This document shows positions 11,190 to 25,138 of a DNA stretch of 64,000 nucleotides, in pieces (position 1 is the first letter of the stretch; each line of letters begins with the position of its first letter). The DNA comes from Aurantiacibacter arachoides. GTDB taxonomy: Bacteria > Pseudomonadota > Alphaproteobacteria > Sphingomonadales > Sphingomonadaceae. The position numbers and the translations under genes were made by a program. The stretch covers positions 2,877,592 through 2,941,591 of the forward strand of contig NZ_WTYH01000001.1 of NCBI RefSeq assembly GCF_009827335.1, read 5' to 3'. The notes under the pieces were generated by a model. The model worked only from the letters and a program-made list of their open reading frames with translations, was not told the DNA's origin and ran no database searches.

Positions 11190-11274
11190 GCGGGCGTGGC
11201 GGAATGGTAGACGCCGGGGACTTAAAATCCCCTGATCCTTGATCGTGCGGGTTCGAGTCCCGCCGCCCGTACCA
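11190..11274 (+). tRNA. tRNA-Leu (anticodon UAA)
   Basis: The 85-base gene folds as a cloverleaf: acceptor arm GCGGGCG with CGCCCGT (one G-U pair), anticodon stem GGGGA/TCCCC around loop CTTAAAA giving anticodon TAA, a class II long variable arm, and the T-arm GCGGGTTCGAGTCCCGC. The discriminator A and CCA are encoded (11271-11274). Its 3' 54 bases are duplicated at 25085-25138, marking it as the integration site of the island that follows. Confidence 0.97.
11219..11272. repeat. attL: left end of the genomic island
   Basis: This is the left copy of a 54-bp direct repeat, from the anticodon stem to the last A-C of tRNA-Leu. It matches 25085-25138 at 51 of 54 positions. The three differences (11236, 11238, 11242) fall in the variable arm, and the final 30 bases are identical. 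The integrase gene ends 28 bases beyond the tRNA. Confidence 0.93.
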
Positions 11275-11302: not shown

Positions 11303-12499
11303 TTAGGCTGCGCTTTTTTGCGATTCGTTTTTCGTTGTGTGTAGTTCTGGTGTAAACGCGTCAGAAAACGTGGCGTCGAGATAAGCAACCGACCTGTCGA
11401 TGTGTTCGTCAGAAAGCTGCGTATACCGCAGCACCATCGACAGGGTTTTGTGCCCGAAGATCTTCTGGATGGTGGGCAGATCGACGTTCGCCTTCACCAA
11501 CTCAGTGATCGCGGTATGCCGCAGAATGTGCGGAGTCACTTTTTTGGGGTTTAAGTTCGCGCGCACTGCTGCACGCCGGAATTGCGCCGACATGTTTTGC
11601 CGACAAGGATGTCGGGGGTGTTCGCGGTTGGTCGGGAAGAGGTAGCCTTCGGGCTTCCCGCACTGTTCCCATTCGGCGAGAAGCTTTAGGCCGAGACTAC
11701 CGGGGATTGGTTGATCGCGTTGCCCTGCCTTTGCCCGGCCTACGAAAATGCGCCGTTGAGCGAAATCGATCTCTTCCCAGCGGATACGAAGAATTTCCGC
11801 GTGTCGCATCCCTGTGCCAATTGCGATAGCTACGAAAAGCCAAGTGAGGGGGTCTTGATCGGCAATTGCGCCAGCCAACAACGCTCGCTTTTCATCGTCT
11901 GATAGGACGACAATCTGCTTCCGTTGCTCCTCGCCTTTGGCGATCTTGGGCTTCGACTTGATCCATCCCCATTCGACGCAGCGAGACAAGAAATGGGACA
12001 GGGTCGACAATTCGCGATTGACCGTCGCCTGGGCCGCGCCTTGGTCGAGCCGATGTCGGTTATAGTGGGAAATGCTGAAGTCGGTGAGCGAGTCCGGGCG
12101 CTGCGCCTTGAAATAGGGGACCAAACGCTCGCGGATATGATGGCGCTTGCGGGTCAAGTTCCTGCCATGCCTTGAGTGCGGCTCGATACGGGTCAGATAC
12201 TCGTCGGCCGCCTCGGCAAAGGACCGATGAACTTTGCGCCCGCTGGGCAGATCAAGCCTGTTCTCCCGCGCCTTTGTGCGAAAGTGTTCGATGGCACGCT
12301 CGGCCTGCTCCCGGGTCGTATTCTCGCTCTCCCGTCCGATCACACGGTGGATGCGCTGACCATCCACCATGACGTTGATGCTGTAGCGCACGTCACCATT
12401 GGTCTGACGTTCTGCGATAATGCCATGCTCGTTTATCCGTTGACCCGCCTCCAAGGCACGGATTGCGGGTCGGGTTAGTTTGGTGAATTTCAGCGCCAT
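11303..12499 (-). CDS. int: Tyrosine-family site-specific integrase
   Basis: This 398-residue phage-type recombinase catalyses insertion and excision of the island. Domains: N-terminal arm-binding part (GQRIHRVIG...REQAERAIEHFRTKA), SAM-like core-binding domain (SFAEAADEYLTR to about residue 180), then the catalytic domain with the Arg in GTGMRHAEILRIRW, HILRHTAITEL (HxxR), the His in FGHKTLS and the nucleophile Tyr in MVLRYTQL. It points toward the tRNA and ends 28 bases from it, the usual tRNA-island arrangement. Its start overlaps the end of the ribbon-helix-helix gene by 10 bases, so the two are co-expressed. Confidence 0.96.
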   Translation of the reverse strand: MALKFTKLTRPAIRALEAGQRINEHGIIAERQTNGDVRYSINVMVDGQRIHRVIGRESENTTREQAERAIEHFRTKARENRLDLPSGRKVHRSFAEAADEYLTRIEPHSRHGRNLTRKRHHIRERLVPYFKAQRPDSLTDFSISHYNRHRLDQGAAQATVNRELSTLSHFLSRCVEWGWIKSKPKIAKGEEQRKQIVVLSDDEKRALLAGAIADQDPLTWLFVAIAIGTGMRHAEILRIRWEEIDFAQRRIFVGRAKAGQRDQPIPGSLGLKLLAEWEQCGKPEGYLFPTNREHPRHPCRQNMSAQFRRAAVRANLNPKKVTPHILRHTAITELVKANVDLPTIQKIFGHKTLSMVLRYTQLSDEHIDRSVAYLDATFSDAFTPELHTTKNESQKSAA

Positions 12500-13224
12500 G
12501 ACGAAATCAGCCCGAGAAAATGCTCTGCATTGAACGCCTCGCCAAATGTCCTTTGATGAGAAGCTTGGTCTTGCAGATGGCTTCGATAGATCTCGCGCCC
12601 TTTAAGTTCCGCTTCCCAGTAAGGGCGCATCGCATCGCCGTAGGCATGGCGCAGGGCATCGAAGTCAGCATCTAACGCAATCAACTGGTCGTGAAGGCTC
12701 AGTGCCTGTTGGCGCAGAGCGGGGTCGGGTATTGCGTCGATACTAGACCGCTCAAGGTTGCGGCTGGCAATTTTGAGCAATCCACCGAACTTGTTGTCTT
12801 GGCTAATAGACAAACCAATTTCAGCCAACTTGCTCACAACATTGGCCTTTTGGTCGTAGGTGTTGATCAACTGCCCAAGGATCGCCTTTACGTCCTCCTC
12901 ATCCCAAGGGTCGTCGGGCCTCATGGCCGAGATCGGGCCTCCGGCCAGCATTTCTGCGACAGCGGACCAACTCGTCAAATCGGCATGCCACCGCTTTCCC
13001 TTGTTCCGCTTGGTAAGAGCAACGATCTCTGCGCTGATCTGCCTGACAAGATCGAGACCCTGCGCATCAAGGCCCACTGTTGCTGCAACCCGCGCCTCAA
13101 TTTCTTTACCGAGGCTGCGCCCATTGGCAGCTGCATGTTTTTCCAACCTCGCCCTTACGTCCGGGTCGAACCGAAGCGTCACCGGCTGGCGACGGTCTTC
13201 TTCAGACTTGCTCGGCCGACCCAT
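12490..13224 (-). CDS. Ribbon-helix-helix domain protein, island operon
   Basis: This is a 244-residue protein. The N-terminus looks like an Arc/MetJ-type DNA-binding fold (RQPVTLRFDPDVRARLEKHAAANGRSLGKEIEARVAATV, about residues 12-50). The rest is a long helical region of unknown family. I chose the ATG at 13224 because GGAGGT sits 4 bases before it; the upstream ATG at 13236 has that same Shine-Dalgarno inside its own codons. The gene overlaps int by 10 bases. It probably regulates int, itself or the divergent excisionase-like gene. Base composition is visibly less GC-rich than the host genes. Confidence 0.75.
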   Translation of the reverse strand: MGRPSKSEEDRRQPVTLRFDPDVRARLEKHAAANGRSLGKEIEARVAATVGLDAQGLDLVRQISAEIVALTKRNKGKRWHADLTSWSAVAEMLAGGPISAMRPDDPWDEEDVKAILGQLINTYDQKANVVSKLAEIGLSISQDNKFGGLLKIASRNLERSSIDAIPDPALRQQALSLHDQLIALDADFDALRHAYGDAMRPYWEAELKGREIYRSHLQDQASHQRTFGEAFNAEHFLGLISSWR

Positions 13225-13326
13225 CCGCACCTCCATAAATGTAAGCGTTTAACGATGCTGTTTTTGATGCCCTAAAGGGTCCGATAGGCTAACTCGGGGT
13301 CTCGCACAACGGTGACGGAGGGTTTC

Positions 13327-13551
13327 GTGGACCAAGTTCAGTTTTTGAAGGTGCAGGTTTTGCCGGATGGGCGCGTTGACCGCGTCAATGCCGCACGTTT
13401 CCTGGGCAAGGCTCCCAAGACGCTCGCCGAATGGCATCGGCTTGGGATTGGTCCTCGAAGCCTGCTGGTTGGAGGTCGCCGGTTCTATCACCTGACCGAA
13501 CTTCAGAGTTTTGTGAACGGCGGGAGGACTGCCGTTCAGACCAGTTAGCAC
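13327..13551 (+). CDS. Excisionase-like helix-turn-helix protein
   Basis: This 74-residue protein, started at GTG 13327, has GGAGGG 6 bases upstream; an in-frame GTG at 13312 lacks such a site. The core reads VNAARFLGKAPKTLAEWHRLGIGP, then a wing-like VGGRRFYHLTELQSFV. This is the MerR/AlpA-type excisionase fold: helix-turn-helix recognition plus a beta wing ending in the typical Y/F-x3-DL-x-F pattern. It is divergent from the ribbon-helix-helix/int operon with about 100 bases between. The likely role is recombination directionality or repression. Confidence 0.75.
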
Positions 13552-13879: not shown

Positions 13880-14421
13880 GATGCAAGGGAAGTAGTTCAC
13901 TCCACGCGAGGCGAATTTCAGACAGCAGATTTGGATTTCACTGCAACCCTACCCCAACCAAATCGGGCCGAGCAAATTTGGCTCGATCCCCAGAAATCAT
14001 GGTTTTCAGCGGCTTTTGCCGCCGTTAGGACAGAAAAGCGGTTGGATAAACTTGCGGTAGCGCAGGCGCCGGGCTTCCCGCGGGATCATATGCGGCGGCG
14101 CAGCTAAAAGAAACGATCTCCCATCCAACAACCATCGAGGAAAAGCGGGCACTGGCACGAGAGAAGCTGGAAACCGTCGTCGCGCGGAGTGCGCAGAAGC
14201 GATGCTTCGCCTTTGCTAGCGTTCGTCCTAAAGATGATCCGCCCCGGTTGGTCTGGTGCATCGCGGATGCGAACAGCCGCGAAGTCCCGGTTGGCCCAGA
14301 CCAACCCAAGCCTGTTCTGAAATCCGCAAAAACCATGCTGGCTGCGGATGATCCGCCGACCCCGGCCAATGACGATCTCGTTGAACAGTGCGGATTGGGC
14401 ACTACCCTTTGCGACAAGTAG
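13880..14421 (+). pseudogene. Decayed gene fragment, two frames
   Basis: Two adjacent plus-strand frames read like protein but neither has a start codon. Frame one (about 13880-14107) contains QIWLDPQKSWFSAAFAAV and EKRLDKLAVAQAPGFPRDH. Frame two (about 14050-14421) contains HPTTIEEKRALAREKLETVV, FAFASVRPKDDPPRLVW and PTPANDDLVEQ. They overlap near 14050-14107, so one frameshift would join them. The parent family is not recognised. The absence of starts and the shift indicate a decayed gene. Confidence 0.5.
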
Positions 14422-14615
14422 GGCGATTTGCAGCAAAGGCTTCGTACGTCTGCCGCGACGTCGGCGCGACCGTGAACGGTATCGAAGGCTTCCAGGCGCA
14501 GTTGAAGCGCGGCATCAATGGCACCCACACTTGCGTCAGCGCGAAGCATCTTTCGAAGTATCTCGTGGTGTTCGAGTTCCGCCATGATCGTCCGCAGACG
14601 ATGCTCACGAGTTGA
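14412..14615 (+). pseudogene. C-terminal remnant of an IS1595-type transposase
   Basis: This plus-strand frame holds the end of the DDE domain of IS1595/ISXO2-like transposases: AAKASYVCRDVGATVNGIEGF (compare the family pattern NxxEGF), QAQLKRGINGTH, VSAKHLSKYLVVFEFR. The N-terminal two thirds and the first Asp are absent, and the frame stops soon after. Its codons favour G/C in third position, unlike the opposite minus-strand frame. I saw no terminal inverted repeats. It is evidence of past insertion within the island. Confidence 0.65.
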
Positions 14616-14690
14616 TCGTTTCTTTCCCACGCCAAGGGCTTCGCCTTCGACCATGCGCCTTAGGAGCGCATCGAAGCGCTTGTTCATTCG

Positions 14691-15368
14691 TCAAGTCATG
14701 CCTCTTGGGATCGCGCCGAACTCATCTTCGATTTCGCTCATCATTGCCGAGCGCACGAACTTCCGAAGAGATGCTTCGTCATATTCTGACCCGCCCCCCT
14801 CGACTTCTCTCACACTGGCCGGATTATCTTGCCCAAACGCATCCAGCGACAACTCAAGGTAGAGCCTGAATTTCTTGCGCTGCTTTTCGCTCGCCGATAG
14901 TCCGGTTGTCCCTGGCATGGTGAAATCCAGCAGGCTCGTAGCCGGGCGCTTTATTTGACCCCATTCGGAATGGCGCATCAATGCGATTGCGGCTTCGCGA
15001 TCGATCCAAACCCTCTCAACCAAAAGCTTTCTCCAATCGAACCACAGCCTATGACGGAGGCGCCACACGCCAGGCAACCGCCACAGAAGCGATAGCACCC
15101 CTGCCACGACCAGCACCACCCTCACCCATGGCTGATTGACCCACGCGGCAAATTCGACAGCCCGCTCCGCCAATGCCAAAACTCGATCATCGCGGGTCAT
15201 TTTGCTGACCAACTTCTGCCACGCCGCAATGTCCTCGCGCAGACCAGCGAGGCCGAGAACGGTGATAGCACTGCCCACGGGGCATTTGAGAGGGCGAAGC
15301 AGAAAATCTTTAGCCTTATTGGAGACCCAAAGGCTCTTGTTGCTTCGCTGCTTATGCGATCTCCCCAT
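14691..15368 (-). CDS. Hypothetical single-pass membrane protein
   Basis: This is a 225-residue protein of unknown family. Features: a basic N-terminus (GRSHKQRSNK), a moderately hydrophobic CPVGSAITVLGLAGL segment (about 29-43), a helical stretch, a clear transmembrane helix (WVRVVLVVAGVLSLLW, about 80-96), then a soluble acidic/basic domain with DREAAIALMRHSEWGQIKR and KQRKKFRLYLELSLDAF. It is transcribed away from the restriction genes. The membrane location and position in a defence-carrying island raise the possibility of an accessory effector, but nothing in the sequence proves it. Confidence 0.55.
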   Translation of the reverse strand: MGRSHKQRSNKSLWVSNKAKDFLLRPLKCPVGSAITVLGLAGLREDIAAWQKLVSKMTRDDRVLALAERAVEFAAWVNQPWVRVVLVVAGVLSLLWRLPGVWRLRHRLWFDWRKLLVERVWIDREAAIALMRHSEWGQIKRPATSLLDFTMPGTTGLSASEKQRKKFRLYLELSLDAFGQDNPASVREVEGGGSEYDEASLRKFVRSAMMSEIEDEFGAIPRGMT

Positions 15369-15814: not shown

Positions 15815-15892
15815 TAGGTTCGATATTCTTCGCTAAGCCCAGATACACTGGACGTTTGCGCCGCCTTCGCTGCCATGCTCTATCAGAGGGCA

Positions 15893-18800
15893 ATGGAGGG
15901 CATCATCGACATAGAGGGGTTCATCGCGCGCTGGGCGCAAACTGGCGGATCGGAACTGGCGAATACGCAGAGTTTCATCAACGGTCTGTGCCGACTGATT
16001 GGCGTTGAGCCGCCCCATGGCAGCATGGCAGACGATGCCAGCAACGATTACGTGTTCGAGCGCCGCGTGTTTCAGGACAATGGGGATGGAACGCAGAGTT
16101 TTGGCCGGATCGACTGCTATCGTCGCGATAGCTTCATCCTCGAAGCAAAGCAGGGAAGCGAGGGCGACCGGGCTGCTGCAACGCGCGGCGAGGACGATAT
16201 CGACCTATTTGGACAGACCGCCACAGCGCGGCTGAAACGCGGCACAGCGAAGCGCGGCACTCCGGCTTGGGCCAAGGCGATGGTACAGGCCAAGGGGCAG
16301 GCGGAACGTTATGCCAAGGCGTTGCCGCTCGATCACGGGTGGCCGCCGTTCCTGCTCGTCGCCGACATTGGCCACTGCATCGAGGTTTACGCCGACTTCA
16401 CCGGCACCGGCAAAGCCTACGTCCAATTCCCTGACCGCGCCCGATATCGCATCATGCTGGACGATCTGCGCGATGAAAAAGTGCGAGAGCGCTTGAAAGC
16501 AATCTGGACTGCCCCAAAGGCGCTTGATCCAGCCGCCCGTTCGGCCCGCGTCACGCGCGATATTGCCGATCTGCTTGCCACGGTCGCCCGGCGGCTGGAA
16601 AAGCGCGGGCACAGTGCGGAGCGGACCAGCGGTTTCCTGATGCGTGTGCTGTTCACGATGTTCGCCGAAGACAGCGGCCTGATCCCCCCGGAAAGCTTCA
16701 CCCGGCTGCTTTTGAACCAGCGCGCCCACCCAGAGCATCTTAAACACCAGTTGTCGGCCCTGTGGGCTGCTATGGACGAAGGCGAGTTCTCGCCCGCGCT
16801 CGGCGTGCCGCTCAGGAAGTTCAACGGCTACCTGTTCAAGGACCGCACCGCCATCGCTCTGGAGGCTGAAGAACTGGTGGTGCTGATCCGCGCGGCGCAG
16901 CACACTTGGACCGAGGTGGAACCGGCGATATTCGGAACCCTACTGGAACGCGCGCTCAATCCGAAAGAGCGGTCGAAGCTGGGCGCGCACTACACGCCGC
17001 GAGCCTATGTCGAGCGGCTGATCGCGCCTACCATCATGGAACCATTGCGAAATGACTGGACCGGAGTGCGGGTGGCGGCGGCAGACCTGATCGAGCAGGG
17101 CAAGTCAAACGAGGCGAAATCGCTCGTGGAAGCGTTCCACCTAAAGCTGGCGGGCACCAAGGTGCTTGATCCAGCCTGCGGCACCGGCAATTTCCTCTAT
17201 GTCGCGATGGCGCGGATGAAGGAATTGGAGAGCGAGGTTCTCGAATTTCTGGTCGAACTGGGCGATCACCAATACGTGGCCGAACTGACCGGGCACACCA
17301 TCACGCCGGAAAACTTCCTCGGCATCGAGATCAACCCGCGCGCGGCGGCGATCGCGCAACTGGTGCTGTGGATCGGGTATCTACAGTGGCATTTCCGCGT
17401 AAACGGTGCAGACCGCGCCCCGCCAGAGCCGATCCTGAAAGACATTCGTACTATCGAGAACCGCGATGCGCTGATCGACTACGAAGCCTGCGAACTGGAG
17501 CGGGACGGGGATGGCAAGCCGGTTACCCGATGGGATGGCGAGGCGATGAAGCCGCACCCGGTAACCGGGCGCATTGTGCCGGATGAGGCGGCCCGCGCCG
17601 AAGTCTATCGCTATGTGAAACCCCGCGCGGCGGCGTGGCCGAAGGCGGATTTCATTGTCGGCAACCCGCCCTTTATCGGCGGCAAGGATGTGCGCGACAA
17701 GCTGGGCGATGGCTATTTCGATGCGCTATTCGCCACCACCGATGTGCCCGAAAGCGCCGATTTCGTGATGCATTGGTGGGACAAAGCCGCCGCCGCTGTG
17801 CGCAAGGGCGGTGTGCGCCGGTTCGGGTTCGTCACGACCAATTCAATCACGCAGGTGTTCAGCCGCCGGGTGATTGCCAAGCATCTGGATGCGAAAGGCG
17901 GGGTGAGCCTGCGCTTTGCCATTCCGAACCATCCGTGGGTCGATGAGAAGGACGGGGCGGCCGTTCGGATCGCCATGACGGTGGCTGAACCGCATGGGAA
18001 GGCGGGGCGGGAGGCCGGGCTATTGCTCATCGTCACCAATGAGAGCGAAGCGCCGGACATTATTGAATTTGGCTCCAATACCGGATTGATCTCCAGCGAT
18101 TTGCGCATCGGTGCAGATGTGACTGCGACGGTGCCGCTCAAGGCGAATGAAAAGCTGGCTTCACGGGGCGTTCCTTTACACGGGAAGGGCTTTTTGATCG
18201 AAACTGAGCAGGTGCCATTTATGAGCCAACGCACGTCACCTGACCTACCTGAGATTGTTTTCTCCTACCGTAACGGTCGTGATCTGGCGAACAGGCCCCG
18301 CGGGCTTTGGGCTATAGACACATATGGACTTACCGAAGCGCAACTTAGCGAGGGTTATCCCAACGCATACCAGCACCTCTTTATTCACGTGAAGCCGGAG
18401 CGCGACCAGAACAAGCGGGGGCATCGGTCCAAACGCTGGTGGTTGCACGGAGAACCCGTCGAATTGATGCGCGGAGGTCGGAAGGGCCTCTCTCGCTACA
18501 TCGCCACCATCGAAACAGCGAAACACCGCGTGTTCCAGTTCCTTCCCAAGTCGATCCTGCCGGATAATATGCTTGTCTGCATAGCGCTGGACGACGCCTA
18601 TTTCCTTGGCGTGCTGTCGAGTCGGTTCCATGTGCCGTGGGCCATCGCCAGCGGTGGTCGGCTCGGCATGGGTGACGATCCACGCTACAACAAATCGCGC
18701 TGCTTCGACCCTTTCCCATTCCCAGCCGATTCGCCCGAACCCCTCAAAGCCAGCATCCGCGCCGAAGCCGAAGCGCTCGATGCGCTGCGCAAGTGCGTGC

Positions 18801-19357
18801 TCCAGAGCCATGAAGACCTGACTCTCACCAAACTCTATAATGTGCTGGAAGCGCTGAAAGTGGGCCGCGCGCTCACCGAGGTGGAGCGTGACATGCACGA
18901 CCGGGGCCTCGTCACCCTGATCCTCCAGCACCACACTGCCATCGACGCGCTGGTGGCCGAATCCTACGGCTGGCCCGCAGACCTGCCTGACGAGGAAATC
19001 CTCACCCGGCTGGTGGCGCTCAACAAGGAACGTGCGGGGGAGGAGGCCAAGGGCCTGATCCGCTGTCTGCGTCCCGAATATCAGGCCCCGGACTACACCG
19101 CGCCCGTCACCCAAGGCCTCGATTTCGGTGAAATGGCCGCCCCGCTGCCTGAAAACGTCATCCCATGGCCCGACAAGCTGCCCGAGCAGGTCAGCGCCGT
19201 GCAAGCAGTCCTTGCCGCCGCAACCACCCCGCTCGCCGCTGGAGATATTGCCCGCGCCTTCAAGGGTAAGCGCACGTCAACCGTTCGACCCGTATTGGAC
19301 GCACTTGCAGGCATCGGCATGGCTCGTCGATTGAGCGACGGAAGGTACGCGGCTTGA
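15893..19357 (+). CDS. MmeI-like restriction-methylation polypeptide (type IIL/IIG)
   Basis: This 1154-residue single-chain enzyme is predicted to methylate adenine and cut unmodified DNA. The N-terminal nuclease shows D74, then nine residues, E84-A-K86 (from GRIDCYRRDSFILEAKQ), exactly the D-x9-E-x-K spacing of MmeI. A helical spacer with NPKERSKLGAHYTPRAYVE precedes the gamma-class methylase: VLDPACGTGNF (AdoMet motif I, 426-434) and NPPF (motif IV, 591-594). A target-recognition region follows (ILPDNMLVCIAL, SRCFDPFPFP). The last 60 residues look like a winged helix, an unusual extension. Start: AGAGGG lies 2 bases upstream of 15893; ATG 15875 is the alternative. Confidence 0.9.
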   Translation: MEGIIDIEGFIARWAQTGGSELANTQSFINGLCRLIGVEPPHGSMADDASNDYVFERRVFQDNGDGTQSFGRIDCYRRDSFILEAKQGSEGDRAAATRGEDDIDLFGQTATARLKRGTAKRGTPAWAKAMVQAKGQAERYAKALPLDHGWPPFLLVADIGHCIEVYADFTGTGKAYVQFPDRARYRIMLDDLRDEKVRERLKAIWTAPKALDPAARSARVTRDIADLLATVARRLEKRGHSAERTSGFLMRVLFTMFAEDSGLIPPESFTRLLLNQRAHPEHLKHQLSALWAAMDEGEFSPALGVPLRKFNGYLFKDRTAIALEAEELVVLIRAAQHTWTEVEPAIFGTLLERALNPKERSKLGAHYTPRAYVERLIAPTIMEPLRNDWTGVRVAAADLIEQGKSNEAKSLVEAFHLKLAGTKVLDPACGTGNFLYVAMARMKELESEVLEFLVELGDHQYVAELTGHTITPENFLGIEINPRAAAIAQLVLWIGYLQWHFRVNGADRAPPEPILKDIRTIENRDALIDYEACELERDGDGKPVTRWDGEAMKPHPVTGRIVPDEAARAEVYRYVKPRAAAWPKADFIVGNPPFIGGKDVRDKLGDGYFDALFATTDVPESADFVMHWWDKAAAAVRKGGVRRFGFVTTNSITQVFSRRVIAKHLDAKGGVSLRFAIPNHPWVDEKDGAAVRIAMTVAEPHGKAGREAGLLLIVTNESEAPDIIEFGSNTGLISSDLRIGADVTATVPLKANEKLASRGVPLHGKGFLIETEQVPFMSQRTSPDLPEIVFSYRNGRDLANRPRGLWAIDTYGLTEAQLSEGYPNAYQHLFIHVKPERDQNKRGHRSKRWWLHGEPVELMRGGRKGLSRYIATIETAKHRVFQFLPKSILPDNMLVCIALDDAYFLGVLSSRFHVPWAIASGGRLGMGDDPRYNKSRCFDPFPFPADSPEPLKASIRAEAEALDALRKCVLQSHEDLTLTKLYNVLEALKVGRALTEVERDMHDRGLVTLILQHHTAIDALVAESYGWPADLPDEEILTRLVALNKERAGEEAKGLIRCLRPEYQAPDYTAPVTQGLDFGEMAAPLPENVIPWPDKLPEQVSAVQAVLAAATTPLAAGDIARAFKGKRTSTVRPVLDALAGIGMARRLSDGRYAA

Positions 19358-19403
19358 CCTTTTTCCCTGCTGGGTTTGCGACGTTTCACACGGGTAGCGC
19401 ATC

Positions 19404-22400
19404 ATGACCGGCAACCGCCCCTACATGCAGCGCGGCATTAATGAACTGGAGAAGCTGGTCGAAGAGACTCGCGCCGATCCAACAACGCTGCGCCGCGTGC
19501 TCGCCGAACTCAGCCATCGAGAAACGGACCGGGCGGGGCGGCTCCGCGGCAAGATTAAGGCCATGCTCGATGGCTTGGAATTGCCGCTCGCAGAGCCACA
19601 AACCCAATCGGCAGTTGCCACAGAACCTGAGTTGCTGGGGTTCAACCCCAATCGAAAGGGCGGATTGGTGATCCCCAATCTAGTTGGGGCCAGTCGCACA
19701 GCATTGAAGGCCGAGTTGAAAAAGGTACAGTCCGAGAAGCAATCGAACTCCCTGGAGAACAGGCCCCAAGTGCCAGAAACCGCTGCCGCGGCGCCGATTG
19801 TAGAGCCGGTTGCCAACCCGACCAAGCCCCGCCAGCCGCCATCGTTGGTCGTATCGCGGATGTTAGACCTGATCGACTACGTGATCGCGGTCGAGAAGGA
19901 TAAACTCAAAACAGTCACCGATGTAGGTGAGCATAAGGGCTTCCACCGCACGCACGACGAACTGGTCGATCTGCCGGGAGTGTCGTTTAATGTCATTGAT
20001 GGTGGCGAAGCGGCATGGTTACAGGTTGAGCGGCTGGCGAAATTGGCTCCGCCGGTGCCCGTGGACCCGCTTCTCGCGACATGGGTGGTTCTTTCCGATG
20101 ATCCCGTTGTGCAGCCACGTCTTCGCGAAAGTCTCTCCGAAGCGGAGTGCAAAAAGGCCGGTATTGCCCTTGAACCGGACCAGCCCGGCATTGCCCTGAT
20201 CGACCTGCCCCAGCGGGAGGATGTGGAAACCGCCCTCGCTTCGTATGTCGCAGGGCCTTGGTCAGCGTGGTCACGGCAAGAGCGACCCCGCCGCGCCAGC
20301 ATTGCCCTGTATGGCAATCTGTTCGCCCTGCAAGCGAGCCTCTCAGCCCCAGACGGAACCCCGCAGGAGTTTGTCTGCGGCATCGGCTATGCAGGCCTGT
20401 CGCACGACGGGAAGCGGCTTCGCTATCCGTTGCTGACCGTTCCGCTCGAAATTGAACTTAATCGCCATAGCCATGTTCTCTCGGTCATCCCCCGCGAGGA
20501 GGTCGCTCCATCGGCGGAGGTCGATCCGCTCGACGCGATGGGGTTCGCCCAGGTCGATGCATGGCGCAAGGATGCGCGGCGAACACTGGATGGGCTGGAA
20601 GATGATCCCCTCTCGCCTTTCGCCCCTGGCACATATGATCGGATCCTGGGGCAAGCCGCCGCCCTGTTGGACTCGCGGGCGCAATATCATGGTGGCGGCG
20701 GCGCAGGGTTCATGCCGCCGCCTACGCCCGGGCCTGAATTGATCATCACCAATGCCTTTGGCTTCTTCCAGCGCGAACGCCGCGCGACACAATTGATGGC
20801 CGATCTGCTGGCGTTCAAAGAATTGCTCGAAGATGGCGGCGACATGGCCATACCTGGCTCTATCGCCGCATTGTTCACCGAGCCATCTACCACAGTTGCC
20901 AGCGAGGACTTCCCGACCTTCCGGGGCATTAATTCCATTCCCGGCTTCACGTCCTCTGATGGCGGCGGTGACGACCTGTTCTTCCCCAAGCCTTTCAACG
21001 GCGAGCAGGTCCAGATCGTGCAGCGACTGGCCGTGCGCGACGGGGTGGTGGTCCAAGGCCCGCCGGGCACTGGCAAGACCCACACCATCGCCAATATCAT
21101 CAGCCATTACCTCGCAACGGGGCGACGTGTGTTGGTCACTTCGCAGAAGTCACCTGCGCTTCAGGTGCTGCAAGGGCAGCTTCCCGCCGCAATCAGACCA
21201 CTAGCGGTCAGTTTGCTCGATAGTGATCGCGAAGGGCTGAAACAGTTCCGCGGCTCAGTCGATCTTATTGCCGAACGCCTGCAAGGCCTGCGCAAGTCAG
21301 ACCTAGACGATGAGATCGCCGGTTTGGGGCGGCAGATCGATGGCCTTCACCAAACGCTCGCGCAGATCGATCACGAAATTGACCGGCTGGGCCGCACGGC
21401 GCTTGAGCCTGTTACCATAGATGGCCAAGTCGTCGCCCCGCTGGATGCCGCACTTGAGGTTCTTAACGCGGGCGACGACGCGCTATGGATCGAGGATGCG
21501 ATCACACCCGCGAGCGCTCACGACGCCGCATTTGCCAATGATGACATTGCTTCAATCAGGCAGGCCCGCGCCACACTTGGTGTTTCGCTCGACTATCTCG
21601 GAAAGGAACTGCCGCCTGCCGATCTGTTCGCCGATATTGAGGGCATTGTAGCCACCCACCTTGACCTGGTGCGGGCATCTTCAATCGACGGTGAAATCAG
21701 CGATGGTATAATCTGGGCGCTGGCTGACGATTGGCCGGAAACTGTCGATGCGGTGTCTGGCCTTTGTGAACGGTTATCGACCTGGACATTGCAGCGTGAC
21801 CAGCTTCGCAACACTGCCACCGCATGGGAGAGTGCAGCCCACGGTCTACTGGCTTCGCCAGCCGATCCGTTGCTGCTCGCGATCCAAGGCATGGAAAACG
21901 AAGCGCGCGCTTTGGCGAGCGACCATGCTTGGTTCCTGACCCGCCCAGTCCAGCTTCCAGATGGCGCTTTAGACGATCCTCGCTTCCTTGCGGCGATAGA
22001 TGATCTGCAAAATGGCGGACAGGGGCTGGGTACATTGGCTGGCCTTTTCGCCCGTAAGACCAAGCAATATCTGGACGCGGTGCGACTGTGTGCAAAAGCG
22101 CCGAAAAGCGCTGAGGATTGGCAAACCGTTGCGCGTTTCATCTCGGCCTCGGATCGCGCCACTGCCCTTATCTCAAGCTGGAATCACGCAATTGCAGGAA
22201 CCGGCCTTCCAGCGAACAATTCGACTGGCCCAGCTGCCGGGCGCGAAATCGTACACATCATGGAGCGGATCGAAGAAATTGCATCCGTTCAAGGGGAGGC
22301 TGCGCACCTGACCAGGGATTTGCGCCGATTGCTCCCACATTGGCCTGGCATAATCACGCAAGAAAACGAAACGTCGCCGGTATTGAATTGCTTGCACCTA

Positions 22401-24764
22401 CACCTGGACCGAGCGCGTCTGAGAAAAGCCGAGACGAACCGGCAGAGTCTTTTGGCAAGACTGGGGACGCATGAAACCGAAATCCATGGAGAAATGCGGC
22501 TGCTTGTCGCCAACCTTGGTCAGGAACGGCTCGCCGCCTCCACCGTCCGCGATGAAGCGATAGCATTAGCGAGGCGTGCGCAACGGTTGCACGGGCACCG
22601 CCCCCATTTCGACGTGGTGGCGGCTGTGAGCGAGAAAATTCAAAACTCTGGTGCTGCGCGTTGGGCGACACGACTGCGCAGTGAACCTGCAACAGGCGAA
22701 GACCCGCTTTGTCTAGGCGATTGGCACAAGCGGTGGCGACTGCGGCGCCTGGCAAGCTGGCTCGACGCTTCGCAGAAGCTTGATCAATTCCGCACGCTCC
22801 ATGGAAATCGTCAGCAGGCAGAGAGCGATCTATCGCGTTCTTACACCCGCATGATTGAACAGCGCACATGGCTGGCGCTGAAAAAGCAGGCCTCTCCCGC
22901 CATTATGGCTGCCCTCAGCGCATATGCTGTTGCTGTAGGGAAGATTGGCAAGGGCACGGGTAAGAGCGCAAACCGGCACCGTAAATCTGCCCGGAGCGCT
23001 GCAAACGCCGTAAAGGGCGCCTTGCCTTGCTGGATCATGCCGCATCATCGCGTTTCAGAGTCCCTGCCTCCAGAACTCGCCATTTTTGATCTGGTAATTG
23101 TTGACGAGGCCTCTCAGTCGACGCTTTCCGGCTTACCAGCATTGTTTCGGGCGCGCCAAATCCTGGTGGTTGGCGATGACAAACAGGTCAGTCCCGACAA
23201 TGTCGGACTATCGATGGATCAGGCCGATGCGCGGGCCGCGCGCTACCTCGCCTCCCAAGTGTCCATTTTTAATGCGCCGATGCGCGAAGAAAATTCCCTT
23301 TACGATCTGGCGAAGGTGGTCTTCGGCGGGGACAAGCTGATGCTGCGTGAGCATTTCCGCTGCGCGGCCCCCATCATCGAATTTTCCAAGAGGCAGTTCT
23401 ACGACAACGAACTGCGCCCGCTCCGCCTATCGAAGGCATCCGAGCGCTTGGACCCAGCATTGATAGATGTGCGCGTCAAAACCGGCTTCCGGAAGGGCAA
23501 GACTAATCCCGCTGAGGCAGACTTCATCGTGAGCGAACTTAGCCGCATGGCTGATGATCCGGCGTTCGACGGACGGACGCTCGGCGTTACCACTCTGCTT
23601 GGAACAGAACAGGCGGCGCTGATCTACAACCGCATCTTGGGCGAATTGGGCATCCCCTTCATCGAGAAATATCATGTGCGGGTAGGTGATCCCTCCGTAT
23701 TTCAAGGTGACGAGCGCGATGTGATGTTCTTGTCGATGGTCGCCACTCCCGGCAATGCGACTGCGCTTAGCGGTTTGGCATTTGAGCAACGCTTCAATGT
23801 CGCCGCATCGCGCGCCCGCGAACGCATGATTTTGGTGCGCTCAATCGACCTCGAACAGTTAAGCCCAAAAGACGCGCTGCGACGGGCACTCTTGGAACAT
23901 TTCCGTTCACCCTTCCCAGTGGATACGTTTGATCAGAGAGAAGCGCGCACTCGGTGCGAATCTGATTTCGAGCGCGAAATGTTCGATGAACTTTCCGGGC
24001 GCGGCTACAGCATAGACACGCAAGTGCGGGTCGGCGCTCATCGCATCGATTTGGTGATTGAAGGCGACGAAGACCGGCGGCTAGCGATTGAGTGCGACGG
24101 TGATCGCTATCACGGCCCTGAGCAGTGGCCTGCGGACATGACCCGTCAGCGCACGTTGGAACGCGCAGGATGGCGCATTTGGCGGTGCTTTGCCTCGCGG
24201 TTTGTGCGGGATCGCGCTGAAGTTCTGTCCGAACTTACTGACTTGCTTACCGCGCTCGACATTCATCCCCGACAGACAAGCGAACGTTCGAGAACCTACA
24301 CCGAATACCGGGAGTGGCCGGATGCAGCATCCGATACCGACCCCGTAAATTCGCCCGTTCCGGAGGAGTTTGATCTACATCTAGGTGATGGGTTGGTTGA
24401 AGACGATGGCAGTCACGATCATCCAGAAGATAGCCCTCTTCTTTTTCACGGAGACGCAGCCTCGTCACCAGCACCCCTACAAGACCACCACGCGACCCGA
24501 ACGACAGAACGCGAGGTCCAGGCGGCTATTTTGGATTTGATGCAGGATGGCAATGTTTGGACCAACGCAGGTCTCAAGGCAGCTATTCCTGCCATCTTGG
24601 CGCTCACTGTCGGCGATCGTGAAATGTCGCTTACCAGACCGAAAGAGGAGAAATGGGAGGAATTGGTCAACAACGCCTTGTCGGAACACGGTCGCAGCAA
24701 TTCCCTATATGCCCGCGGGCTGCTCTCGAAGGTGGGGCACGGCCAGCATCGCTTGAAAAGATGA
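19404..24764 (+). CDS. SF1 helicase fused to a Vsr/DUF559-like nuclease
   Basis: This is a 1786-residue protein. The first 540 residues are a specific N-terminal region with no named domain. The helicase has Walker A GPPGTGKT at 552-559, a long helical insertion with coiled-coil character (EIAGLGRQIDGLHQTLAQID), motif II VDEAS at 1233-1237, VVGDDKQVSP, and motif VI NVAASRARER at 1465-1474. The nuclease at about 1515-1600 has E1519, RIDLVIEG (D1549) and E1563-C-D in AIECDGDRYH, then GWRIWRCFASRF, like the MTES_1575/Vsr group. A winged-helix-like end follows. It starts 46 bases after the methylase gene. The likely role is phage defence. Confidence 0.87.
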   Translation: MTGNRPYMQRGINELEKLVEETRADPTTLRRVLAELSHRETDRAGRLRGKIKAMLDGLELPLAEPQTQSAVATEPELLGFNPNRKGGLVIPNLVGASRTALKAELKKVQSEKQSNSLENRPQVPETAAAAPIVEPVANPTKPRQPPSLVVSRMLDLIDYVIAVEKDKLKTVTDVGEHKGFHRTHDELVDLPGVSFNVIDGGEAAWLQVERLAKLAPPVPVDPLLATWVVLSDDPVVQPRLRESLSEAECKKAGIALEPDQPGIALIDLPQREDVETALASYVAGPWSAWSRQERPRRASIALYGNLFALQASLSAPDGTPQEFVCGIGYAGLSHDGKRLRYPLLTVPLEIELNRHSHVLSVIPREEVAPSAEVDPLDAMGFAQVDAWRKDARRTLDGLEDDPLSPFAPGTYDRILGQAAALLDSRAQYHGGGGAGFMPPPTPGPELIITNAFGFFQRERRATQLMADLLAFKELLEDGGDMAIPGSIAALFTEPSTTVASEDFPTFRGINSIPGFTSSDGGGDDLFFPKPFNGEQVQIVQRLAVRDGVVVQGPPGTGKTHTIANIISHYLATGRRVLVTSQKSPALQVLQGQLPAAIRPLAVSLLDSDREGLKQFRGSVDLIAERLQGLRKSDLDDEIAGLGRQIDGLHQTLAQIDHEIDRLGRTALEPVTIDGQVVAPLDAALEVLNAGDDALWIEDAITPASAHDAAFANDDIASIRQARATLGVSLDYLGKELPPADLFADIEGIVATHLDLVRASSIDGEISDGIIWALADDWPETVDAVSGLCERLSTWTLQRDQLRNTATAWESAAHGLLASPADPLLLAIQGMENEARALASDHAWFLTRPVQLPDGALDDPRFLAAIDDLQNGGQGLGTLAGLFARKTKQYLDAVRLCAKAPKSAEDWQTVARFISASDRATALISSWNHAIAGTGLPANNSTGPAAGREIVHIMERIEEIASVQGEAAHLTRDLRRLLPHWPGIITQENETSPVLNCLHLHLDRARLRKAETNRQSLLARLGTHETEIHGEMRLLVANLGQERLAASTVRDEAIALARRAQRLHGHRPHFDVVAAVSEKIQNSGAARWATRLRSEPATGEDPLCLGDWHKRWRLRRLASWLDASQKLDQFRTLHGNRQQAESDLSRSYTRMIEQRTWLALKKQASPAIMAALSAYAVAVGKIGKGTGKSANRHRKSARSAANAVKGALPCWIMPHHRVSESLPPELAIFDLVIVDEASQSTLSGLPALFRARQILVVGDDKQVSPDNVGLSMDQADARAARYLASQVSIFNAPMREENSLYDLAKVVFGGDKLMLREHFRCAAPIIEFSKRQFYDNELRPLRLSKASERLDPALIDVRVKTGFRKGKTNPAEADFIVSELSRMADDPAFDGRTLGVTTLLGTEQAALIYNRILGELGIPFIEKYHVRVGDPSVFQGDERDVMFLSMVATPGNATALSGLAFEQRFNVAASRARERMILVRSIDLEQLSPKDALRRALLEHFRSPFPVDTFDQREARTRCESDFEREMFDELSGRGYSIDTQVRVGAHRIDLVIEGDEDRRLAIECDGDRYHGPEQWPADMTRQRTLERAGWRIWRCFASRFVRDRAEVLSELTDLLTALDIHPRQTSERSRTYTEYREWPDAASDTDPVNSPVPEEFDLHLGDGLVEDDGSHDHPEDSPLLFHGDAASSPAPLQDHHATRTTEREVQAAILDLMQDGNVWTNAGLKAAIPAILALTVGDREMSLTRPKEEKWEELVNNALSEHGRSNSLYARGLLSKVGHGQHRLKR

Positions 24765-25084: not shown

Positions 25085-25138
25085 GACTTAAAATCCCCTG
25101 AGCATTGCTCGTGCGGGTTCGAGTCCCGCCGCCCGTAC
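25085..25138. repeat. attR: right end of the genomic island
   Basis: This partial copy of the tRNA-Leu 3' part matches 11219-11272 at 51 of 54 positions. The last 30 bases are identical up to ...CCGTAC, after which the left copy continues CATT and this one GCTG. It lacks the acceptor 5' half and D-arm, so it is not a tRNA gene, and no CCA is encoded. Confidence 0.93.

Follow-up and report, generated by a model that had tools for sequence, protein, structure and literature searches.

An MmeI-like restriction-modification enzyme followed by an SF1 helicase–nuclease gene in a mobile tRNA-Leu island

Type IIG restriction-modification (R-M) enzymes are usually viewed as self-sufficient, and Hhe, a DUF4011–SF1 helicase–Vsr protein represented in PADLOC and NCBIfam, is a one-gene system. 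Large helicases, some of them nuclease-ended, also occur in defence islands as parts of DISARM, ARMADA and Druantia; helicases of the YprA family are SF2 enzymes. The excerpted text of PMC12458937 places the helicases of DISARM, ARMADA and Druantia in the YprA family. The combination of a methylase with a helicase–nuclease has a precedent, which uses a helicase other than the one described below: according to the relevant sections of PMC12839542, BREX-related type-1 systems hold an N6-MTase and a helicase–nuclease effector in an R-M-like module. For giant SF-I helicase–Vsr–wHTH proteins, the part of PMC3710099 that deals with them describes associated modification genes as entirely absent.

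The main cargo of a ~13.9-kb tRNA-Leu island in the 64-kb stretch of Aurantiacibacter arachoides DNA analysed here (the window) is a pair of genes encoding an MmeI-like R-M enzyme and an SF1 helicase–nuclease (Table 1). The initial annotation had described two same-strand genes 46 bases apart inside a mobile island, and this description is borne out. The two ORFs lie on one strand with a 46-bp gap, Pfam, PADLOC and motif positions agree with the domains and motifs claimed for both, and the island has an integrase, a tRNA-Leu, a 54-bp repeat at its bounds and a lower G+C content (58.7%) than the remainder of the window (67.3%). The first gene starts at 15875, and the earlier-noted 15893 is a later in-frame ATG. 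Elsewhere in the genus, 28 of 30 genomes carry relatives of the PilZ gene directly after the island; in 10 of 11 such loci scanned, all but L158, tRNA-Leu(TAA) lies within ~0.6 kb of the PilZ gene. Between 15300 and 25200, promoter and terminator scans gave counts not above those of shuffles. On the same chromosome, ~4.6 kb before the window, there is a second MmeI-like gene (1049 aa; L195 7853-11002, G000:C1); it has no helicase gene beside it, and an ORF upstream of it looks integrase-like by eye.

Table 1. Positions of island features in the window
Feature	Position	Strand	Basis
tRNA-Leu (TAA), integration target, attL side	11190..11274	+	ARAGORN; 54-bp repeat
Tyrosine integrase, beside tRNA-Leu	11303..12499	-	Pfam Phage_integrase 103 bits; NCBIfam XerA-type match below cut-off
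TraY/DDP1-like, probable mobilisation or regulatory factor	12490..13236	-	Pfam TraY 23.3 bits (cut-off 21.3); weak NCBIfam DDP1
Small protein, excisionase-like by eye	13327..13548	+	inference; no Pfam family at E<=0.001
Two adjacent cargo ORFs (14025-14687, 14691-15368)	14025..15368	-	no Pfam, NCBIfam or PADLOC match at E<=0.001
MmeI-like type IIG/IIL R-M enzyme (gene 1), 1160 aa	15875..19357	+	Pfam, PADLOC, PDB matches
Endonuclease motif D-x9-E-x-K (D80, E90, K92)	16106..16150	+	motif search, homologue alignment
AdoMet motif DPACGTGNF, residues 432-440	17168..17194	+	motif search
Methylase catalytic motif GNPPF, residues 596-600	17660..17674	+	motif search
SF1 helicase–Vsr-like nuclease–winged helix (gene 2), 1786 aa	19404..24764	+	Pfam, motifs, alignment
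N-terminal ~75-aa segment of gene 2	19404..19628	+	alignment occupancy
Walker A GPPGTGKT	21057..21080	+	motif search
Walker B VDEASQ	23100..23117	+	motif search
Helicase motif VI NVAASRAR	23796..23819	+	motif search
MTES_1575 (Vsr-fold) nuclease domain, residues 1522-1613	23967..24242	+	Pfam 100.6 bits (cut-off 38.2)
C-terminal winged-helix domain, residues ~1699-1786	24498..24761	+	alignment
Repeat of tRNA-Leu 3' end, attR side	25085..25138	+	51/54 identical

Gene 1 shares with MmeI, a type IIL (IIG) enzyme (PDB 5hr4, matched at E 1.4e-37), the domain order and the nuclease, AdoMet and NPPF motifs, but it is longer than the 919 aa of the PDB chain. The Pfam families MmeI_N (78.3 bits), MmeI_hel (53.8 bits) and MmeI_Mtase (115.2 bits; cut-offs 27) match in order, and the target recognition domain MmeI_TRD scores 24.9 bits, just under its cut-off of 27. 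The PADLOC type IIG model PDLC03627 covers residues 12-1160 (1483 bits). The spacing of the nuclease residues equals that of D70-E80-K82 of MmeI, as given in the excerpted text of PMC4833311. The DrmMI model matches residues 592-1034 (223 bits), and PglX models match partially, with at most 28.8 bits.

Gene 2 carries the motifs GPPGTGKT, VDEASQ, GDDKQ, FQGDE and NVAASRAR in SF1 order, with Pfam matches to AAA_11/AAA_12 and a further match to UPF1/SMUBP-2. Both the Pfam score and the fold place its nuclease domain in MTES_1575 of the Vsr fold, with the ECD motif IECDGD at residues 1562-1567. Pfam lists no HEPN or transglutaminase domain in gene 2, and a Foldseek search gave no match at E<=0.001. 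According to the occupancy table, the N-terminal segment is found in the nearest homologues and is missing in the short forms and in G114 (a genome whose pair is described below); by eye, it resembles the start of some Hhe-like helicases. The segment was ruled out as a hallmark of pairing with R-M genes because the G114 helicase does not have it.

As the initial annotation had supposed, the pair has no name in any library searched. Gene 2 has the SF1 core and Vsr-like nuclease end in common with Hhe, but reaches 152.8 bits against an NCBIfam equivalog cut-off of 2000. The best profile matches across its helicase and nuclease are anti-phage ProA (NCBIfam NF058533; 234.4 bits, partial and under the cut-off of 1500) and the PADLOC candidate PDC-S37 (237.7 bits, partial, best stretch 706-1354 of 1550, for a model given no cut-off); a combined-term search of open-licence PMC found no paper on ProA. 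With the giant proteins, as portrayed in the excerpt of PMC3710099, gene 2 shares the helicase, the MTES_1575 nuclease and the C-terminal wHTH, but relatives of gene 2 sit behind modification genes. BREX-related type-1 systems, in the sections of PMC12839542 on them, use a Swi2/Snf2 helicase and a DUF499 ATPase, where the window has an SF1 helicase and a self-sufficient R-M enzyme; neither a DUF499 ATPase nor a Swi2/Snf2 helicase–nuclease was matched among the island proteins scanned. Unlike the YprA-family helicases of ARMADA and Druantia, gene 2 is of the AAA_11/AAA_12, UPF1/SMUBP-2 kind. A PADLOC scan that took in genes 1 and 2, both minus-strand cargo ORFs and the PilZ gene listed no DrmA, DrmB or DrmC (for gene 1, among the best 25 of 27 families), and the proteins scanned include no BREX pglZ, brxC or brxL and no further gene of DISARM, ARMADA or Druantia. 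An operon of MmeI-like enzyme and SF1 helicase–Vsr protein is undescribed in the open-licence PMC matches listed, a set outside which lie subscription papers, supplements and most preprints.

The pairing of the two genes is found elsewhere, as had been anticipated. In G912, a genome of another genus, the same pair overlaps by 4 bp (ATGA), with an MmeI-like enzyme 70% and a helicase 58% identical to those of the window. A second MmeI subfamily, represented in G114 and 30% identical to the window enzyme, overlaps helicases of the same family as gene 2 in G114 and G893 (99.9% identical to each other over the pair) and in G704 (a fragment at a contig end); the G114 helicase is 49% identical to that of the window. 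In G143, an enzyme of this second subfamily (68% identical to that of G114) overlaps a distant, Hhe-like helicase, which is nearer to Hhe (1031 bits, still under the cut-off of 2000) and 26% identical to gene 2 over 464 C-terminal columns. The MmeI and helicase sides have thus each changed partners; G143 is a case of partner exchange and not of a single inherited cassette. Order and strand are identical in four pairs with ATGA, TGATG or GTGA junctions (start codons taken mechanically). Helicase, nuclease and methylase motifs are conserved. Paired enzymes have not lost the MmeI nuclease, as its motif is intact in both paired subfamilies (the G704 fragment stops short of it). The MmeI comparison did not recover a single clade of paired enzymes: the window enzyme shares 74% identity with each of two lone enzymes and 70% with that of G912, at an unsupported fork. 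GmrSD-type genes adjoin the pair on the helicase side in G912 (L147 334-2472) and on the MmeI side in G114 (L079 15302-17149), and also in G893; another stands beside an MmeI-like gene alone in G142 (L183 8174-10063). McrBC lies behind the Hhe-like helicase of G170.

We surveyed both sides of the pair. The helicase search gave two other close helicases (G114, G132) in 296 genomes of the order, with only distant ones in 28 genomes; 12 genomes plus the window's own among 397 of the family; three others among 385 of the class; six among 94 of the genus of G171 (taken as Sphingobium or near); and no additional case among 287 relatives of G912. Ten plasmid records matched at >=80% coverage, and 3 of 50,697 records of named phages matched weakly. 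The 115 homologous proteins found are nearly all without genome context, and a scan across 84,980 species genomes supplied 18 loci, in none of which the DNA examined has an MmeI-like gene. MmeI-like relatives (E<=1e-50) occur in 29 of 296 genomes, and a helicase–Vsr gene is adjacent in three of them (window, G114, G143); it is near but divergent in G170, the MmeI ORF of G126 is unreadable, and the remaining 24 have no helicase within about three ORFs (phmmer, three queries).

From the helicase side, the picture differs. Long forms are defined here as helicases that possess the C-terminal extension or, where truncated, belong to the same clade. Of the 12 long-form loci with a visible upstream region, 11 have an R-M gene immediately before the helicase, MmeI-like in five (window, G912, G114, G893, G704) and type III in six (pSF1, CAP-1, MH, DC-6, G1029, G1064). 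The twelfth, G703, has no R-M neighbour; the gene next to it resembles mfd by eye. This count takes G1028 and G1001, at the coordinates of CAP-1 and MH, once, and excludes G726 (upstream off the contig), G862 (a fragment), KK22, G992, G339 (context not taken in) and G641 (L124, split). It corresponds to about four of five lineages, because G893 is nearly the same as G114 and the type III cases form one lineage. The initial annotation had rested its pairing on the helicase gene commonly being next to a methylase gene; this fails on the MmeI side (3/29) and holds for the long-form helicase (11/12), with type III as the neighbour in six.

The R-M partners are of several kinds. The type III version, a mod-res operon with a long-form helicase ~125 bp behind it, is carried by Sphingobium and Rhizorhabdus plasmids; G1029 has the same arrangement and G1064 only a visible res. 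On two Acinetobacter plasmids, 63 bp separate a distant relative (724 bits) from the brxL that precedes it in a BREX-1 operon; the excerpted text of PMC9455709 reports a BREX segment on the p3ABAYE plasmid lineage and makes no mention of the helicase. On a viral contig (L170 10007-17108) a helicase is followed ~200 bp on by an hsdM gene, possibly a type I version of the arrangement. On the Sphingobium sp. CAP-1 plasmid (L088 2174-5811) the type III Mod is split by IS21 elements, and the res and helicase frames are intact. CAP-1 may represent a natural modification-minus case; the disruption of Mod could be recent, and a different Mod could take its place. Elsewhere, the helicase of R. wittichii DC-6 (L090) is split by IS1380, and those of S. 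fuliginis KK22 (L091) and G992 (L209) are cut to the last 669 aa, with no R-M gene; both remnants keep the nuclease–winged-helix end.

Of the short-form relatives examined, most are solitary, and some have ter genes beside them. As G703 and nearly all short forms examined have no R-M neighbour, the helicase can probably act alone. In a tree of 46 helicases (quick maximum likelihood, SH-aLRT support only, long basal branches; L006, L008, L009, L012, L016, L017, L153 and several plasmid copies absent), the window and G912 form one supported clade and the G114 group another, to which the type III helicases are sister; the ter-side short forms lie nearby, and the BREX and hsdM helicases are far from both. 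R-M adjacency changes at least four times over 28 labelled rows, with the BREX and hsdM cases taken as adjacent; the 28-row count was used because the tree group table puts rows of unknown context in other groups. Of 24 lone helicase loci, 20 have no winged helix, three (L007, L010, L092) are ambiguous and G703 has one. The winged helix is associated with an R-M neighbour (7/8 against 2/20; naive Fisher p 2e-4), in a count that omits L007, L010 and L092 (ambiguous C-terminus), L143 (cut), all P-proteins (no context), the type III loci L206 and L207, and L088 and L090. The winged helix was dropped as a hallmark of R-M pairing, as there are just two independent contrasts, with a median p of 0.5.

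We favour, with a probability of roughly 0.45, the reading that the locus is a complete single-chain R-M enzyme with an appended helicase–nuclease in a mobile defence island. Its observed basis is the domains, motifs, gene order, island borders and recurrence behind R-M genes. The MmeI-like enzyme would mark host sites with N6-methyladenine and cut unmarked foreign DNA. The SF1 helicase–nuclease would then load onto R-M-bound or cut DNA, with the winged helix as DNA reader; the helicase would unwind the DNA and the Vsr-fold domain cut it up, turning one repairable break into destruction. We infer such cooperation of the two proteins from sequence. The helicase–nuclease looks like an add-on part for modification-based systems, a putative plug-in whose family follows type IIG, type III and BREX-1 genes, with one member preceding a type I hsdM. 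The broader proposal is more tentative, and we lean against it: that SF1 helicase–Vsr–winged-helix proteins are a transferable effector subunit, joining and steered by type IIG, type III, BREX and perhaps type I systems, and converting site-specific cutting into processive destruction.

This modifies two claims of the initial annotation. It had seen a composite of these two genes; a fixed two-gene MmeI–helicase system is ruled out, since most MmeI-like genes are without a helicase and the helicase partners vary. Because MmeI rarely adjoins the helicase and the long form is mostly behind R-M genes of differing type, an exchangeable add-on fits better. It had also proposed that modification marks self against the helicase–nuclease. 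A need for modification to shield the cell from the helicase is disfavoured, both because the CAP-1 helicase frame is intact despite the split Mod and because many members of the family have no R-M gene beside them. Several observations weigh against the favoured reading itself: the sample is small, given the missing context of most homologous proteins; G703 and nearly all short forms examined lack an R-M neighbour; most MmeI-like genes lack a helicase; cut-down helicases persist without R-M in KK22 and G992; and the GmrSD-type genes flanking the G912 and G114/G893 pairs also fit stacked defences.

The main rival, a serious one that we nevertheless think somewhat improbable, holds that one transcription unit carries two independent defences: the R-M enzyme would cut unmodified DNA, and the helicase–nuclease–winged-helix protein would be a type IV-like or structure-sensing nuclease in its own right, aimed at modified phage DNA, ends or replication intermediates. 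Hhe and ProA, helicase–Vsr relatives, are named anti-phage proteins in NCBIfam, and the winged helix is weakly Mrr_N-like in L149. The lone short forms, the GmrSD-type flanking genes, the McrBC behind the G170 helicase and the intact CAP-1 helicase are also consistent with independent action, and the excerpt of PMC3710099 proposes a modification-independent role for the giant helicase–Vsr–wHTH proteins. Independent action leaves unexplained, however, the consistent order of R-M gene then long form and the several touching or overlapping frames.

That order also argues against chance, by which defence genes pile up in islands and adjacency is meaningless. The low MmeI-side count, the divergent G170 genes and the other defence genes flanking some pairs would suit this explanation, but the shared order, strand and junctions of four pairs, and the 11 of 12 long-form loci behind R-M genes of several types, make it unlikely. 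Less likely still are a backup or suicide device, in which the R-M enzyme holds the helicase–nuclease inactive until phage inhibition frees it, as proposed for PrrC-like partners (guarded backup effectors of R-M systems are proposed in the excerpted PMC3710099 text, but the intact CAP-1 helicase beside a split Mod and relatives alone in many genomes are unexpected for a freed killer), and an MmeI-like enzyme that is a self-marker only, with the helicase–nuclease as sole restriction effector as proposed for BREX-related type-1 systems (a division of labour described in the relevant sections of PMC12839542, but at odds with the intact MmeI nuclease motif in both paired subfamilies).

If the favoured reading is true, a helicase–nuclease that accompanies type IIG enzymes as well as type III and BREX systems would make the boundary between simple R-M and multi-gene defence less sharp, and would offer a testable explanation for the occurrence of helicase–nucleases both alone and in operons. 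The R-M-adjacent relatives contrast with the absence of modification partners reported for the giant SF-I helicase–Vsr–wHTH proteins in the excerpt of PMC3710099.

For the lone helicases, the neighbour scan took at most the six longest ORFs lying within 3 kb at each locus and covered 126 of these 139 ORFs (L006, L008, L012, L016 and L017 dropped as short contigs). One cytosine methylase was found among the 126, probably a phage gene on L174 by eye. The family tables run to 103 entries for Pfam and 44 for PADLOC; within the first 25 of each, DUF475 and TerD have five ORFs each, and singleton families may lie beyond. DUF475/TerC-like and TerD genes adjoin the short forms of L080 (Pfam) and, by eye, of L150, L151 and L208, all from relatives within the same family; G1058, also a short form, has ter-like neighbours by eye as well. 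The location of short forms near ter genes suggests a chromosomal, ter-linked role.
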